Part shown: positions 7,559 through 37,060 of the stretch, one piece after another
Position numbering within the stretch: position 1 is the stretch's first letter
Layout of the letters: each line of letters starts with the position of its first letter
Source of the DNA: Symbiodinium natans
Taxonomy: Eukaryota; Sar; Dinophyceae; Suessiales; Symbiodiniaceae
Reading direction: 5' to 3'
Assembly: GCA_905221605.1 (NCBI GenBank)
Contig: CAJNDS010002095.1
Location: 614,531 to 678,530, forward strand
Length of the DNA: 64,000 nt
Made by a program: the position numbers and the translations under genes
Notes under the pieces: generated by a model
The model's database searches: none
Seen by the model: only the letters and a program-made list of their open reading frames with translations
Told to the model about the DNA's origin: nothing

Positions 7559-7591
7559 TTCGTAGAGATCCCCGGCCGGAGACGTCGGACC
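7559..7591 (-). CDS. Small exon, probable continuation of an SH3-like domain
   Basis: Minus strand CCAAG acceptor, 11 codons in phase 0 (GPTSPAGDLYE), then a GTTTAG donor. The G.LYE. ending resembles the G.YEV strand that follows NG..GTV in SH3-like repeats, matching the exon upstream at 7870. Confidence 0.35.
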
Positions 7592-7619
7592 CTTGGGGCC
7601 TAAGGCCCCTAAAACCCCT

Positions 7620-7869
7620 AAGACCCCTAAACCCCCGACCCTAAACCCTAGCCCTAAACCCTAAACCCCAAATCCTAAACCCTAAACCCTAAACCCCAAA
7701 CCCTAAACCCTAAACCCTAAACCCCAAACCCCAAACCCTAAACCCTAAACCCTAAACCCCAAACCCCTAAACCCCAAACCCAAACCCTAAACCCTAAACC
7801 CTAAACCCCAAACCCCAAACCCTAAACCCTAAACCCTAAACCCTAAACCCTAAACCCTAAACCCTAAAC
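7620..7869. repeat. Telomere-like tract, C-strand
   Basis: About 35 heptamers, CCCTAAA with CCCCAAA blocks, ending in eight perfect copies against the exon-like island at 7870. Confidence 0.95.
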
Positions 7870-7952
7870 CCTCGGAATCCCGGCCGAAGATTTCGGACGG
7901 TGCCGTTCTCGCCGTTGTACTGCGCAGCCGAAGCCAAGCCTTGCACGCAAAC
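7870..7952 (-). CDS. Exon with SH3-like motif
   Basis: Minus strand CTCTGAG acceptor, 83 bp open, donor GTTTAGGG formed by the telomere tract itself. It reads VCVQGLASAAQYNGENGTV, the GL..A..YNG..GTV pattern of SH3/KOW-like repeats common in alveolate and plant proteins. Joined in phase 0 to a GC donor in the exon at 8267 it would read GDLV-VCVQGL. Family by motif recall. Confidence 0.5.
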
Positions 7953-7962
7953 CTCAGAGGGG

Positions 7963-8071
7963 TTTAGGGTTTAGGGTTTAGGGTTTAGGGTTTAGGGTTT
8001 AGGGTTTAGGGTTTAGGGTTTAGGGTTTAGGGTTTAGGTTTTAGGGTTTAGGGTTTAGGGTTTAGGGTTTA
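7963..8071. repeat. Telomere-like tract, G-strand, ending in a head-to-head flip
   Basis: About fourteen TTTAGGG copies, then an abrupt change at about 8071 to CCCTAAA without spacer (TTTAGCCCTAAACC). Confidence 0.95.
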
Positions 8072-8180
8072 GCCCTAAACCCCTAAACCCTGATTCCCTG
8101 ATCCCTAAATCGTAAACCCTAAGTCCCCAAAACGGCAAGCCCGAAACCCGAAACCCTAAAGCCCTAAACCCAAATCCTAC

Positions 8181-8266
8181 CCCCCCAAACCCCCATCCCT
8201 AAACCCTAAACCCTGAACCCCAAACCTAAAACCTAAACCCCAATCCCTAAACCCTAAACCCAAAAC
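8181..8266. repeat. Telomere-like tract, C-strand, degenerate
   Basis: CCCTAAA with CCTAAAA, CCCCAAA and CCCAAAA variants, lying against the exon-like island at 8267. Confidence 0.85.
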
Positions 8267-8356
8267 CGGGCCACGAGATCGCCCACGGAGAGCTCGACAG
8301 CCTCGGGGGCCGCATCTTCCAGGCGCCGCGCGCGCGGCCGGAAGCTGCCGCCTGGC
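8267..8356 (-). CDS. Exon-like island upstream of the SH3-like exon
   Basis: Minus strand CCCCAAG acceptor, 90 bp open, donor GTTTTGGG (or a GC donor after GATCTCGTG). It reads RRLEDAAPEAVELSVGDLV, where the VGDLV end is the usual lead-in to an SH3-like strand. Confidence 0.5.
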
Positions 8357-8360
8357 CTTG

Positions 8361-8480
8361 GGGTTTGGGGTTTGGGGTTTAGGGTTTAGGGTTTAGGGTT
8401 TAGGGTTTAGGGTTTGGGGTTTAGGGTTTAGGGGTTTGGGGCTTAGGGTTTAGGGCTTACGGCTTACGGCTTGGGCTTAG
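8361..8480. repeat. Telomere-like tract, G-strand
   Basis: TTTGGGG then TTTAGGG, decaying into CTTAGGG and CTTACGG. Confidence 0.9.
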
Positions 8481-8630
8481 AGTTCAGACGTTCTGTAAAA
8501 CTTTACATGGAAACTTTTTAGGATTAAGAGTTGTTAAGGGTTTGGGGTCATTTGTCTCAAAGATGACGCCCAAGGCTGTTTCATGGTTGAGGGATTAGGG
8601 TTTCGGACTTTCATTAGGTTACAATAATTC

Positions 8631-8832
8631 CTGGTAGCTCGGTAACCATATTAAAATCAGGGTACCCTTGTTGGGGGTTGGTTACTTCAGATGGGAAACC
8701 TTGAACCAAGAAGAAAAGGGAAAAGCTAAACCCGAAACCCTAAACCCTAAACCCTAAACCCTAAACCCTAAACCCTAAACCCTAAACCCTAAACCGAAGA
8801 AAAGGGAAAAGGGTAGCCACTGGGCTACCAAG
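8631..8832. mobile_element. Foldback element, family E, split by a telomere insertion
   Basis: Left end CTGGTAGCTCGGTAACC and right end GGTAGCCACTGGGCTACCAAGG are imperfect inverted repeats. The interior TTGGGGGTTGGTTACTT is shared with the copy at 10669. The element is interrupted at 8726-8795 by a 70 bp CCCTAAA tract flanked by the 16 bp duplication GAAGAAAAGGGAAAAG (8710-8725 and 8796-8811). Confidence 0.8.
8726..8795. repeat. Telomere tract inserted with 16 bp target duplication
   Basis: Exactly 70 bp, ten heptamers (one CCCGAAA), inside foldback element E. Removing it and one copy of the 16 bp duplication restores a continuous element. Confidence 0.85.
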
Positions 8833-8876
8833 GTTTAGGTTTCAGGGGGGCTCCCAACAGGGGCACCAGAACTTAC

Positions 8877-8902
8877 TGCAGGAAGCTGCCCATGGCTTCG
8901 GC
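8877..8902 (-). CDS. Micro-exon candidate
   Basis: Minus strand TTCTGAG acceptor, 26 bp (AEAMGSFL), then a consensus donor GTAAGT. Too short for more than low confidence, but the donor is the best in the region. Confidence 0.3.
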
Positions 8903-8925
8903 CTCAGAATTTAGGAGAAAAAAAC

Positions 8926-34988: not shown

Positions 34989-35097
34989 TGGTTGGGGTCA
35001 AGGTATGCATGAATAGGTTTATCAACAGGGTTTGAGGTTTAGTTCAGGATACTGCCCTGAACCCTAAACCCTCAACCCGAAAGCCAAAACGATAAAC

Positions 35098-35192
35098 CTT
35101 CTGGGGTATTCTTTCTTGGCTCCTCGGGAGTGTTCCCCCGAAGCCACTTGGGCAGCTTGTGGTCCTTGGCTTTCATGGCGATGGGAGATTCG
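35098..35192 (-). CDS. Exon-like segment, Lys/Pro-rich
   Basis: Minus strand CCCCAAAG acceptor, 95 bp open (ESPIAMKAKDHKLPKWLRGN, TPEEPRKNTPE), donor GTTTATCG. Confidence 0.45.
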
Positions 35193-35376
35193 CTTTGGGG
35201 TTTAAGGTTTAGGGTTGAGGGTGTAGGGCTAGTCCCGCTCCTAGTCGGAGAGAAGTGAGGAGGATAAGCGACTCTTGTGTGCTGGGTTACCCCAGTAACC
35301 TCAGGAGAACATGGGCGTCCTTGATCGTAGTCAATCGGACTAAGCCCGAGAAGGGGAATGAGGCCTAGTTTATAGG

Positions 35377-35434
35377 GGATAGGATTCGGGGGATCCTTGG
35401 GGAAGGGCTCCCTTTTAAGGGTCCCCCCTACCTA
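35377..35434. mobile_element. Foldback element, family D, internally deleted
   Basis: GGATAGGATTCGGGGGATCC and AAGGGTCCCCCCTACC ends with most of the core lost. Confidence 0.65.
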
Positions 35435-35506
35435 GGAGTTTAAGACTCCTCCAAGGTTCGGCAGATGACTGCCGATCTGAAAAACTGCCACCGAAAGCCG
35501 TTCACC
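35432..35506 (-). CDS. Possible terminal exon
   Basis: Minus strand acceptor TTTGCCTTTTTTTAG, then 24 codons (GERLSVAVFQIGSHLPNLGG, VLNS) and TAG inside the family D element. The acceptor is strong. Confidence 0.4.
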   Translation of the reverse strand, partial: GERLSVAVFQIGSHLPNLGGVLNS

Positions 35507-35691
35507 CTAAAAAAAGGCAAAGGTCACGCGCTTCTCACCTGTGAAGCCTTGTTCCCTCCAAAAGCCAACAAAAAAGTAGCGCTCAATCACTGAAACTTGA
35601 TCCCTACCCTAACCCTGCATACGCTTAACGCCTTAACCTAAACACTCGGCCCTGAATCCTAACCACCACCACCACCCCCCCCCCCCCCCCG

Positions 35692-35790
35692 CAAAGACAG
35701 CACTCTTGCACGCGAGGCTTCCGTCACAACCTTCGTAACTGGCGGCTCGATCTTTTCTGGTCTTCGCCGGCGTTGACGCTGCTTCTCCTT
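35692..35790 (-). CDS. Exon-like segment, Arg-rich
   Basis: The minus strand is open through WKEKQRQRRRRPEKIEPPVT and KVVTEASRARVLSLR, next to a C homopolymer (plus 35676-35690). Edges approximate. A plus ATG frame at 35805-36011 lies just outside and is not supported further. Confidence 0.4.
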
Positions 35791-36250
35791 CCAGATTTCA
35801 ACCCATGATAATGGCCCAGACTATCATCCCGCAACACATGGTATACAGGCTACTGTATGTATGGAATCGCATCAGGGTTCTCTTGGAAATTTGGACTGGA
35901 AGGCTTGAACACCACAAAGGCCTTATGTGCGCTGGTCGTCTTTTTCTTGCTAAGAGGTACCGAATGCTGTTCAGTGTTACAGGCGAACGATGGAAACATC
36001 ACATTTTGTGATCAAGGAGCCTTAGCTGAGAAGACTTTCTTTGCGCAGGGGGGGTTGGGAGGAGCTAACCCTAAACCCTAAGCCCTGAACCCTGAACCCT
36101 AAACCCTAAACCCTAAACCCTAAACCCTAAACACTAAACCCTAAACCCTAAACTGAACCTTGCGATTTGGGTAGTATGGAGGTCTGGCCTGGGTGCGAAT
36201 CTTATACCCCAGAACCCAACCTCTCACCTGACAAATCCGTCAGAATCATC

Positions 36251-36368
36251 ACTAGACCCGGGAGTAACCCAGGAATAAAAAGGGCACCCTTTTTTGATTT
36301 TAAGGGGATTATAACGGAACCACAAGCCTAAAAAAAGGAGAAAAAAAGTGCCTACTCCCGGTCCTAGA
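36251..36368. mobile_element. Foldback element, family K
   Basis: CTAGACCCGGGAGTA and TACTCCCGGTCCTAG ends, with AAAAAGGGCACCC / AGTGCCTAC inside. Related pieces (TTTAAAGGGG core; CCTACTCTGGGTCCTAG end) occur at 37112-37215 and 40108-40195. Confidence 0.6.
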
Positions 36369-36427
36369 TCAGCTTGACCATCCGAACACAAAAACCTGAA
36401 CCACAAAACCAAACACCGCTTGAAATA

Positions 36428-36840
36428 TTCTCCAAAAACCCCAAACCCTAAAACCCTAAAACCCTAAAACCCTAAAACCCTAAAACCCTAAAACCCTAAA
36501 ACCTTAAAACCCTAAAACCCTAAAACCCTAAAACCCTAAAACCCTAAAACCCTAAAACCCTAAAACCCTAAATTCCTAAAACCCCAAAACCCTAAAACCC
36601 TAAAACCCCAAAACCCTAAAACCCTAAAACCCTGAAACCCTAAATCCTTAAAACCCCAAAACCCCTAAAACCCTAAAACCCCAAAACCCTAAAACCCTGA
36701 AACCCTAAAACCCTAAAACCCTAAAACAATAAAACCCTAACACCCTAACACCCTAACACCCTAAAACCCTAAAACCCTAAAACCCTAAAACCCTAAAACC
36801 CTAAAACCCTAAAACCCTAAAACCCTAAACACTAAGCCCT
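36428..36840. repeat. CCCTAAAA octamer tract (TTTTAGGG type)
   Basis: About fifty tandem CCCTAAAA units with few variants (CCCCAAAA, CCCTAACA). It is the only long tract of the octamer and differs from the heptamer that dominates the window. Confidence 0.95.
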
Positions 36841-36854
36841 AAATCCTACACCTG

Positions 36855-36964
36855 CCCTAAGGGTCCATGTACCTAAATATTGAATACTTAGGCCTTAAAG
36901 TACTTCCTATATAGGGGCTTTGGGGCCCAAGTATATAATAATGAGGTACATGCACCCTGAGGGC
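36855..36964. mobile_element. Foldback element, family A
   Basis: CCCTAAGGGTCCATGTACCT and AGGTACATGCACCCTGAGGG ends; left half nearly identical to 24641. It abuts the donor of the exon at 36969. Confidence 0.9.
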
Positions 36965-36968
36965 TGAC

Positions 36969-37060
36969 TTTCAAGGCCTCCAAGGAGGATGCGGCTTTTT
37001 GCAGCCATGTGGGGGTCACCTGCTCCACCCGTGAGCCCGAAGCCCTCAGCATTCGGTACC
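36969..37060 (-). CDS. Exon-like island next to a foldback element
   Basis: Minus strand CTCAAAG acceptor, 92 bp open (YRMLRASGSRVEQVTPTWLQ, KAASSLEALK), donor GTCAGC, four bases from the family A element. The plus strand is also open (FKASKEDAAFCSHVGVTC). Confidence 0.4.

Follow-up and report, generated by a model that had tools for sequence, protein, structure and literature searches.

Telomere repeats and intron ends

Fusion of two telomeres leaves a head-to-head scar, as at human 2q13. Sequence features that act in splicing include intronic G-run enhancers and polypyrimidine tracts. Both subjects bear on a 64,000-nucleotide stretch of the Symbiodinium natans genome (the window; C1783:614531-678530, from an assembly of 759 Mb in 2543 contigs), in which a predicted minus-strand gene of 24 short exons has introns often bordered by arrays of TTTAGGG or CCCTAAA, which tend to differ in orientation between the two ends. 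TTTAGGG is given as the dinoflagellate telomere motif in PMC11453091 and PMC11508785, and is presumed to hold for S. natans.

Three reports (PMC7789003, PMC10666404, PMC9860276) describe introners bearing inverted repeats as abundant in dinoflagellates. Introners are defined, in the relevant part of PMC7789003, by an inverted repeat of 8-20 nucleotides (nt) near both intron ends and by a 3-5 nt direct repeat spanning the intron boundaries, and a 30-nt limit for the inverted repeats is applied in that of PMC10666404. The introns described here resemble introners, as portrayed in those parts of PMC7789003 and PMC10666404, in having inverted repeats towards their ends, non-canonical donors and, less clearly, boundary direct repeats. 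Unlike introners, they carry these repeats as long subterminal telomere arrays (within 30 nt of both ends in 1/23) whose two arms do not match in the same intron, and the window revealed no repeated family.

The internal TTTAGGG/CCCTAAA arrays are interstitial telomeric sequences by the usual definition, with 141 tracts in the window and a pooled 23% of 190 kb elsewhere. Like others of that kind they consist of the host telomere heptamer; unlike them they are oriented with respect to exons and occupy about one fifth of the sampled DNA. They share with head-to-head fusion scars the TTTAGGG...CCCTAAA polarity, intron 19 being an almost pure case, but lie inside introns, many per gene and mostly with other DNA between the arms. 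As with G-run enhancers and polypyrimidine tracts, G-rich sequence stands just past the donor and C-rich sequence before the acceptor; here these are supplied by telomere repeats, and their activity is only putative. A literature search made mostly at abstract level turned up no account of telomere arrays with a fixed orientation at the ends of introns.

A 24-exon gene on the minus strand

Positions 1-41.3 kb of the window hold 141 telomere-like tracts (73 CCCTAAA-type and 68 TTTAGGG-type on the plus strand) according to the hidden Markov model (HMM) caller used for the main counts; five mononucleotide shuffles of the same sequence gave none. A first caller, superseded for those counts, missed tracts downstream of very long ones.

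The islands between tracts give plausible peptides when read on the minus strand. A 681-amino-acid chain of candidate exons from this strand matched two proteins, P0001 (431 amino acids, E 2.6e-85) and P0002 (422 amino acids, E 1.6e-39; named Durusdinium trenchii), and a profile search with both found four further relatives, bringing the homologues to six. One of them, P0006, bears a symbB.v1.2 name, which we take to denote Breviolum minutum, and covers the later junctions only. P0001 comes from a 1426-base contig that is probably a spliced transcript. In tblastn it matches the minus strand in a collinear series of blocks that runs from 25152 to about 921, with identities of 43-100%, mostly above 70%.

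Spliced alignment to P0001 and P0002, with GT, GC and GA donors allowed equally and AG as the sole acceptor choice, gives 24 accepted exons from 26458 to 462 (15-94 nt, mean 51, total 1214) separated by 23 introns of 209-5352 nt. The alignment to homologues establishes the predicted gene, its exons and the orientation of the arrays about them, and on this basis the gene at 462-26458 is coded by the minus strand. For comparison, Table 2 of PMC10666404 lists mean exon lengths of 98.7-239.9 bp in six dinoflagellates, the parasite Amoebophrya (578.7) excluded. Around the junctions the spliced protein aligns with its homologues without gaps, except at junctions 1, 2, 18 and 21, in variable stretches; at junction 15 residues are missing in P0005. 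P0006 has extra residues within the stretch coded by exon 15, which suggests either an intron there that is absent from S. natans or a wrong model.

A 10-nt exon at 1915-1924 (P0001 reading) and the conflicting last exons 174-156 and 305-275 of the two proteins were left out as uncertain. Intron 21 was taken as 2479-1613, the variant 2462-1613 breaking the reading frame; the 60-nt counts given below are the same either way. Neither P0001 nor P0002 matched a Pfam family above cut-off, and a structure model of P0001, mostly helices, was too poor for fold comparison (mean predicted local distance difference test score 49.6).

The first-pass annotation, made from the sequence alone, had proposed that the islands are minus-strand exons cut at the array edges. 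Three of the four acceptor-side edges that it named (20481, 25152 and 14506) coincide exactly with the alignment and the fourth is unsupported. Its donor-side edges fall 6-37 nt away: 7870 (aligned 7885), 20421 (20437), 23462 (23468), 24352 (24367), 14417 (14439) and 25063 (25100). Nor was its reading of the islands as often exactly in phase borne out: 7 of 24 exon lengths are divisible by three, the chance level.

Arrays flank the splice sites in a preferred orientation

In 15 of the 23 introns the array closest to the donor, at a distance of up to 60 nt, reads TTTAGGG in the sense direction (G array), and in 2 it reads CCCTAAA (C array); within the same distance of the acceptor it is a C array in 17 and a G array in 2 (Fisher p 4.7e-6). 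This bears out the earlier proposal of opposite orientations at the two intron ends, and the contrast persists at 20, 30, 40 and 100 nt (p 3.5e-4, 6.9e-5, 6.8e-6 and 1.7e-6). Altogether 32 ends are right and 4 wrong. In 2000 circular shifts of the tract map over 1-26.5 kb the means were 4.7 and 4.6 and none reached the observed values; the largest right-minus-wrong difference was 11, as against 28. Presence is affected as well as orientation, with an array within 60 nt at 36 of 46 intron ends compared with about 9.3 of 46 in the shifts. Arrays more than 60 nt from both intron ends show little bias (24 G, 20 C).

The introns show a tendency to begin a little ahead of a G-rich array and to finish a little past a C-rich one. 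Among arrays within 60 nt, the G array starts a median of 13 nt after the donor (2-37; 15 introns) and the C array ends a median of 14 nt before the acceptor (1-58; 17 introns). Gaps of 45-200 nt in the gene with a C array before and a G array after them (C-island-G gaps) contain a homology-supported exon in 13 of 20 cases, against 3 of 29 for other gaps of this size (Fisher 1.1e-4). Many islands inside the gene are thus minus-strand exons, as had been claimed, though not all. The bracketing is less common than the two thirds of islands first estimated: it applies to 20 of 49 such gaps in the gene and to 34 of 74 over the whole window, the latter counted with the faulty first caller. Since C-island-G is its own reverse complement, the arrays do not tell the coding strand.

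The donors are GC in 15 introns, GA in 5 and GT in 3. All 23 introns end in AG, the only acceptor allowed, and 22 of the 23 exons that follow them open with G, a preference not imposed by the alignment. Dinoflagellate spliceosomal introns are marked by the same features, namely GT/GC/GA donors, an AG acceptor and an exon beginning with G; the donor and first-exon-base figures in Table 2 of PMC10666404, where GC and GA donors are common, agree with those of the gene. The first 400 residues of P0001 give a spliced score of 1521 with GT, GC or GA donors anywhere, 1487 if no donor may fall inside a sense G array or up to 4 nt from it, 1067 with GT donors only, and 749 if donors are forced into or within 4 nt of such an array. 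The idea that GTTTAGGG supplies the GT donor fails on this comparison and on the donors themselves, GC or GA in 20 of 23. The predicted donors sit beside the arrays, not inside them.

Recurrence on other contigs

The comparison sample, 20 stretches drawn from eight other contigs, comprised 190,102 readable bases. Arrays occur in 19 of the 20 and form a pooled 23% of a sample that favours array-rich contigs, since these were known through a match to a telomere-bearing query. Exon-size gaps with the same bracketing recur there. C-island-G gaps peak at 70-110 nt and G-island-C gaps have no peak; between 50 and 130 nt they number 100 and 49 (p=3.6e-5). The coding score of C-island-G gaps exceeds that of G-island-C gaps (p=0.015), with no clear excess over C-C and G-G gaps (p=0.09 and 0.56).

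The stretches contain 138 predicted exons, whereas 10 shuffles averaged 36. Those with arrays on both sides are arranged C..G in 22 cases, G..G in 11, C..C in 4 and G..C in 3; the respective shuffle means are 4.7, 1.8, 1.7 and 1.4, with a C..G maximum of 8. The downstream side carries most of the signal (44 G, 12 C). One predicted multi-exon gene, in stretch L150, has a match to the protein kinase family (PF00069, E 4.8e-12), and 5 of its 14 predicted exons have a C array at most 60 nt before and a G array at most 60 nt after them. It was one of four predicted proteins of the sampled stretches compared with Pfam, the other three giving no match above cut-off.

Of the protein kinase matches listed for genome G000, most fall in long open frames and some are arranged in tandem (C1019). 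Intron-poor genes stand beside intron-dense ones in this genome, and an intron-blind search favours the intron-poor. By eye only, a predicted minus-strand chain in L140 (G000:C1856:150001-160000) resembles a Copia-type retrotransposon polyprotein, and a minus-strand peptide in L139 (G000:C1856:60001-70000) an Asp/Glu-racemase-type protein.

The two arms of an intron

Both arms are present in the right orientation in 10 of 23 introns, where about 11 would be expected from 15/23 and 17/23 if the ends were independent. Arms of the same intron are no more alike than those of different introns (similarity 0.613 and 0.622, p=0.66). Inverted repeats of at least 8 nt lie within 30 nt of both ends, the limit applied to introners, in only 1 of 23 introns, which sets these introns apart from introners; they lie within 60 nt in 8 and within 100 nt in 14; mismatched ends (506 pairs) have them as often or more, in 16%, 45% and 60% of pairs. 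Direct repeats across the junctions average 3.39 nt, against 2.95 in mismatched pairs (p=0.034). Self-comparison of the window, masked with the tracts of the first caller, revealed no shared intron interiors but only short dispersed repeats, the longest of about 170 bp and several palindromic.

Where arrays adjoin directly (gap at most 3; window and 20 stretches together), G is followed by C in 14 cases and C by G in 3 (p=0.013); the excess is also seen at gaps of at most 1, 5 and 10 (p 0.04, 0.05, 0.02). A G array joined straight to a C array is clear in intron 19 but not in most introns.

The first-pass annotation had also suggested that the introns fold on themselves. Among introns shorter than 700 nt, 12 of 13 pair end to end more than after reversal of the 3' half, but the effect is not specific: in eight intron-exon-intron units the largest pairing term was intra-intronic in 4 (in one case almost level with a pairing that spans the exon), across the exon in 2 and at longer range in 2. 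In these models, end-to-end folding of the introns is possible.

Possible roles and origins of the arrays

We infer the function and origin of the arrays from these patterns. The explanation preferred here, to which we give a little less than an even chance, is that of an intron-dense gene whose spliceosomal introns carry interstitial telomere arrays beside their splice sites, kept there to help define weak sites. Arrays would be retained independently at each intron end in the orientation in which they help. GGG runs just downstream of GC and GA donors would serve as an intronic enhancer, and the C-strand would place before the acceptor a C-rich tract devoid of misleading splice signals; the reversed orientation would put an acceptor-like TTTAG/G ahead of the real acceptor. 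The C-strand heptamer has no AG, GT, GC or GA and the G-strand has the acceptor-like TTTAG/G, so selection could discriminate between the orientations. With GC or GA at 20 of the 23 donors, these sites would benefit from extra definition. The distance free of AG ahead of the acceptor is also greater in introns with a C array there (median 21 nt, 17 introns) than in those without (6.5 nt, 6 introns; p=0.08), and the recurrence of the bracketing on other contigs, the L150 kinase gene among them, speaks for this explanation as well. Since arrays are enriched, and not merely sorted, near splice sites, an enhancer-like role is preferred with modest confidence; and since the arms are independent in presence and sequence, with ends unlike one repeated element, per-site retention of arrays is favoured over one insertion per intron.

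Several observations weigh against this explanation. Exon 15 is spliced by homology although both flanking arrays stand in the wrong order, so the orientation is not obligatory, and arrays are absent from the nearest 60 nt at 6 of the 23 donors and at 4 of the 23 acceptors. Over all 23 introns the AG-free distance ahead of the acceptor has a median of only 11 nt. On the other contigs the upstream side gives little signal by itself (31 C, 24 G), and in shuffled islands C..G likewise outnumbers G..C (4.7 to 1.4). In the L150 kinase 9 of 14 predicted exons lack the pattern, among them 8103-8153, inside the best kinase stretch.

Alternatively, each intron could be the scar of its own birth: breaks in the gene would have been capped by telomerase, with TTTAGGG outward at each end, and re-joined as exon-TTTAGGG...CCCTAAA-exon, the insert then being spliced out. 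A telomere-telomere fusion would leave precisely this array polarity, and intron 19, with 322 nt and 95% head-to-head arrays, keeps such an origin alive; intron 3, the shortest, with its G array, poly-G and C array, also speaks for it. One fusion per intron predicts paired arms, however, and these occur only as often as for independent ends; most introns are under half array. The excess of G-to-C adjacency fits a fusion, but is also expected if exons cannot fall below a few dozen bases, and was dropped as proof because short exons alone could produce it. On balance a fusion origin appears unlikely.

Neutral accumulation, with arrays spread throughout non-coding DNA and selection only purging those that break splicing, is likewise improbable. 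It would agree with the 23% share of arrays in 190 kb of other sequence and with their balanced orientation away from intron ends. Purging can only lower the counts near splice sites, however, and the observed number is about four times the shifted null (36 against 9.3 of 46 ends).

A composite history, in which introns were born or rebuilt by telomerase from capped and re-joined breaks, many exons being flanked like tiny linear chromosomes, and the arrays were then co-opted genome-wide for splice-site recognition, seems more doubtful still. An introner-like DNA transposon with telomere repeats as foldback-like terminal inverted repeats, making introns on insertion, is equally hard to credit: the abundance of introners in dinoflagellates, the longer junction repeats and the inverted repeats within 60 and 100 nt speak for it, but mismatched ends match as often or more, the arms are unmatched and the masked window shows no shared intron interiors.

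The link between telomere repeats and intron structure comes from homology in the one gene and from spacing on the other contigs. Should the arrays mark or create splice sites, S. natans would offer a direct test of intron origin and of the recognition of weak GC/GA donors. Gene finders that mask 'simple telomeric repeats' or require GT donors would damage such gene models.

Table 1. Predicted exons, selected introns and splice-site arrays of the gene (array sense as on the minus strand)
Feature	Position	Strand	Basis and remarks
Whole gene, 24 exons	462..26458	-	spliced alignment P0001+P0002, tblastn blocks; 5' end 26458; C-terminal end past 462 unsettled
Exon 1	26444..26458	-	spliced alignment, P0001 only; MQYMK; 5' limit = ATG
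Exon 2	25100..25152	-	spliced alignment
Exon 3	24367..24424	-	spliced alignment
Exon 4	24119..24157	-	spliced alignment
Exon 5	23468..23510	-	spliced alignment
Exon 6	22520..22569	-	spliced alignment
Exon 7	22111..22149	-	spliced alignment, P0002 reading; P0001 reading ends 22115
Exon 8	21468..21533	-	spliced alignment; P0001 reading starts 21537
Exon 9	20437..20481	-	spliced alignment
Exon 10	19492..19548	-	spliced alignment
Exon 11	18804..18835	-	spliced alignment
Exon 12	15094..15136	-	spliced alignment
Exon 13	14439..14506	-	spliced alignment
Exon 14	13766..13815	-	spliced alignment
Exon 15	13180..13273	-	spliced alignment; flanking arrays in reversed order (counter-example)
Exon 16	12552..12597	-	spliced alignment
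Exon 17	10919..10957	-	spliced alignment
Exon 18	9420..9469	-	spliced alignment; in a variable stretch; 7-nt uncertainty at 3' end
Exon 19	8275..8356	-	spliced alignment; 5' end uncertain by 5 nt
Exon 20	7885..7952	-	spliced alignment
Exon 21	2480..2532	-	spliced alignment, P0002 reading; 3' end uncertain
Exon 22	1570..1612	-	spliced alignment
Exon 23	953..1008	-	spliced alignment
Exon 24	462..486	-	spliced alignment; short, less certain
Intron 3	24158..24366	-	shortest (209 nt); G array, poly-G, C array; 59% called array
Intron 19	7953..8274	-	322 nt, 95% telomere-like; TTTAGGG array head-to-head with CCCTAAA array
Donor-side array (TTTAGGG), intron 2	25029..25071	-	HMM tracts
Donor-side array, intron 3	24259..24353	-	HMM tracts
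Donor-side array, intron 5	23355..23464	-	HMM tracts
Donor-side array, intron 6	22406..22502	-	HMM tracts
Donor-side array, intron 7	22030..22107	-	HMM tracts
Donor-side array, intron 8	21414..21439	-	HMM tracts
Donor-side array, intron 9	20200..20423	-	HMM tracts
Donor-side array, intron 10	19417..19489	-	HMM tracts
Donor-side array, intron 11	18745..18771	-	HMM tracts
Donor-side array, intron 12	14995..15056	-	HMM tracts
Donor-side array, intron 13	14358..14414	-	HMM tracts
Donor-side array, intron 14	13687..13753	-	HMM tracts
Donor-side array, intron 17	10803..10885	-	HMM tracts
Donor-side array, intron 19	8074..8267	-	HMM tracts
Donor-side array, intron 20	7607..7872	-	HMM tracts
Acceptor-side array (CCCTAAA), intron 1	25158..25309	-	HMM tracts
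Acceptor-side array, intron 2	24432..24518	-	HMM tracts
Acceptor-side array, intron 3	24196..24223	-	HMM tracts
Acceptor-side array, intron 4	23541..23885	-	HMM tracts
Acceptor-side array, intron 6	22201..22261	-	HMM tracts
Acceptor-side array, intron 8	20486..20566	-	HMM tracts
Acceptor-side array, intron 10	18884..18934	-	HMM tracts
Acceptor-side array, intron 11	15151..15276	-	HMM tracts
Acceptor-side array, intron 12	14530..14755	-	HMM tracts
Acceptor-side array, intron 13	13825..13859	-	HMM tracts
Acceptor-side array, intron 15	12607..12640	-	HMM tracts
Acceptor-side array, intron 17	9513..9545	-	HMM tracts
Acceptor-side array, intron 18	8358..8487	-	HMM tracts
Acceptor-side array, intron 19	7960..8072	-	HMM tracts
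Acceptor-side array, intron 21	1671..1762	-	HMM tracts
Acceptor-side array, intron 22	1023..1043	-	HMM tracts
Acceptor-side array, intron 23	503..528	-	HMM tracts

Other features of the window

Further exon-size C-island-G islands occur at 26460-41300, beyond the gene. A homology search for 27-41 kb found no homologue. With a codon model trained on the gene itself, the minus-strand coding signal is 170 in the gene (shuffle maximum 34) and 40 at 26.5-41.3 kb (shuffle maximum 19), and at 26460-41300 the coding signal exceeds shuffles on both strands. The island at 32231-32329, initially read as an exon, belongs to this region of weaker signal, outside the confirmed gene.

The remainder of the window, 41300-64000, is a tandem satellite of 31-33 copies, depending on the reference, spaced at 468-891 bp (mostly about 560 and 795); many copies are 98-100% identical, and this half has no telomere-like tract. 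Rfam at gathering cut-offs and a tRNA scan gave no matches, nor did four stop-to-stop frames and one of the six frames of 7-37 kb match a Pfam family above cut-off. A search of the PDB with one frame of 15.3-18.2 kb returned two matches, at only E 0.26.

A partly palindromic repeat of about 110 bp, resembling a miniature inverted-repeat transposable element, occurs in both orientations at 24641-24751, 31252-31359, 36855-36965 and 12419-12529 (79-95% identity). A second short dispersed family, of about 90 bp, lies at 21175-21268, 26317-26410, 29971-30068 and 40225-40317. An exact scan for the heptamer found 5 stretches in viral contigs and at least 119 in prokaryotic contigs; 2 of the 124 loci listed (L109 and L030, both from the prokaryote collection) have at least two clusters in each orientation and are perhaps eukaryote contamination.

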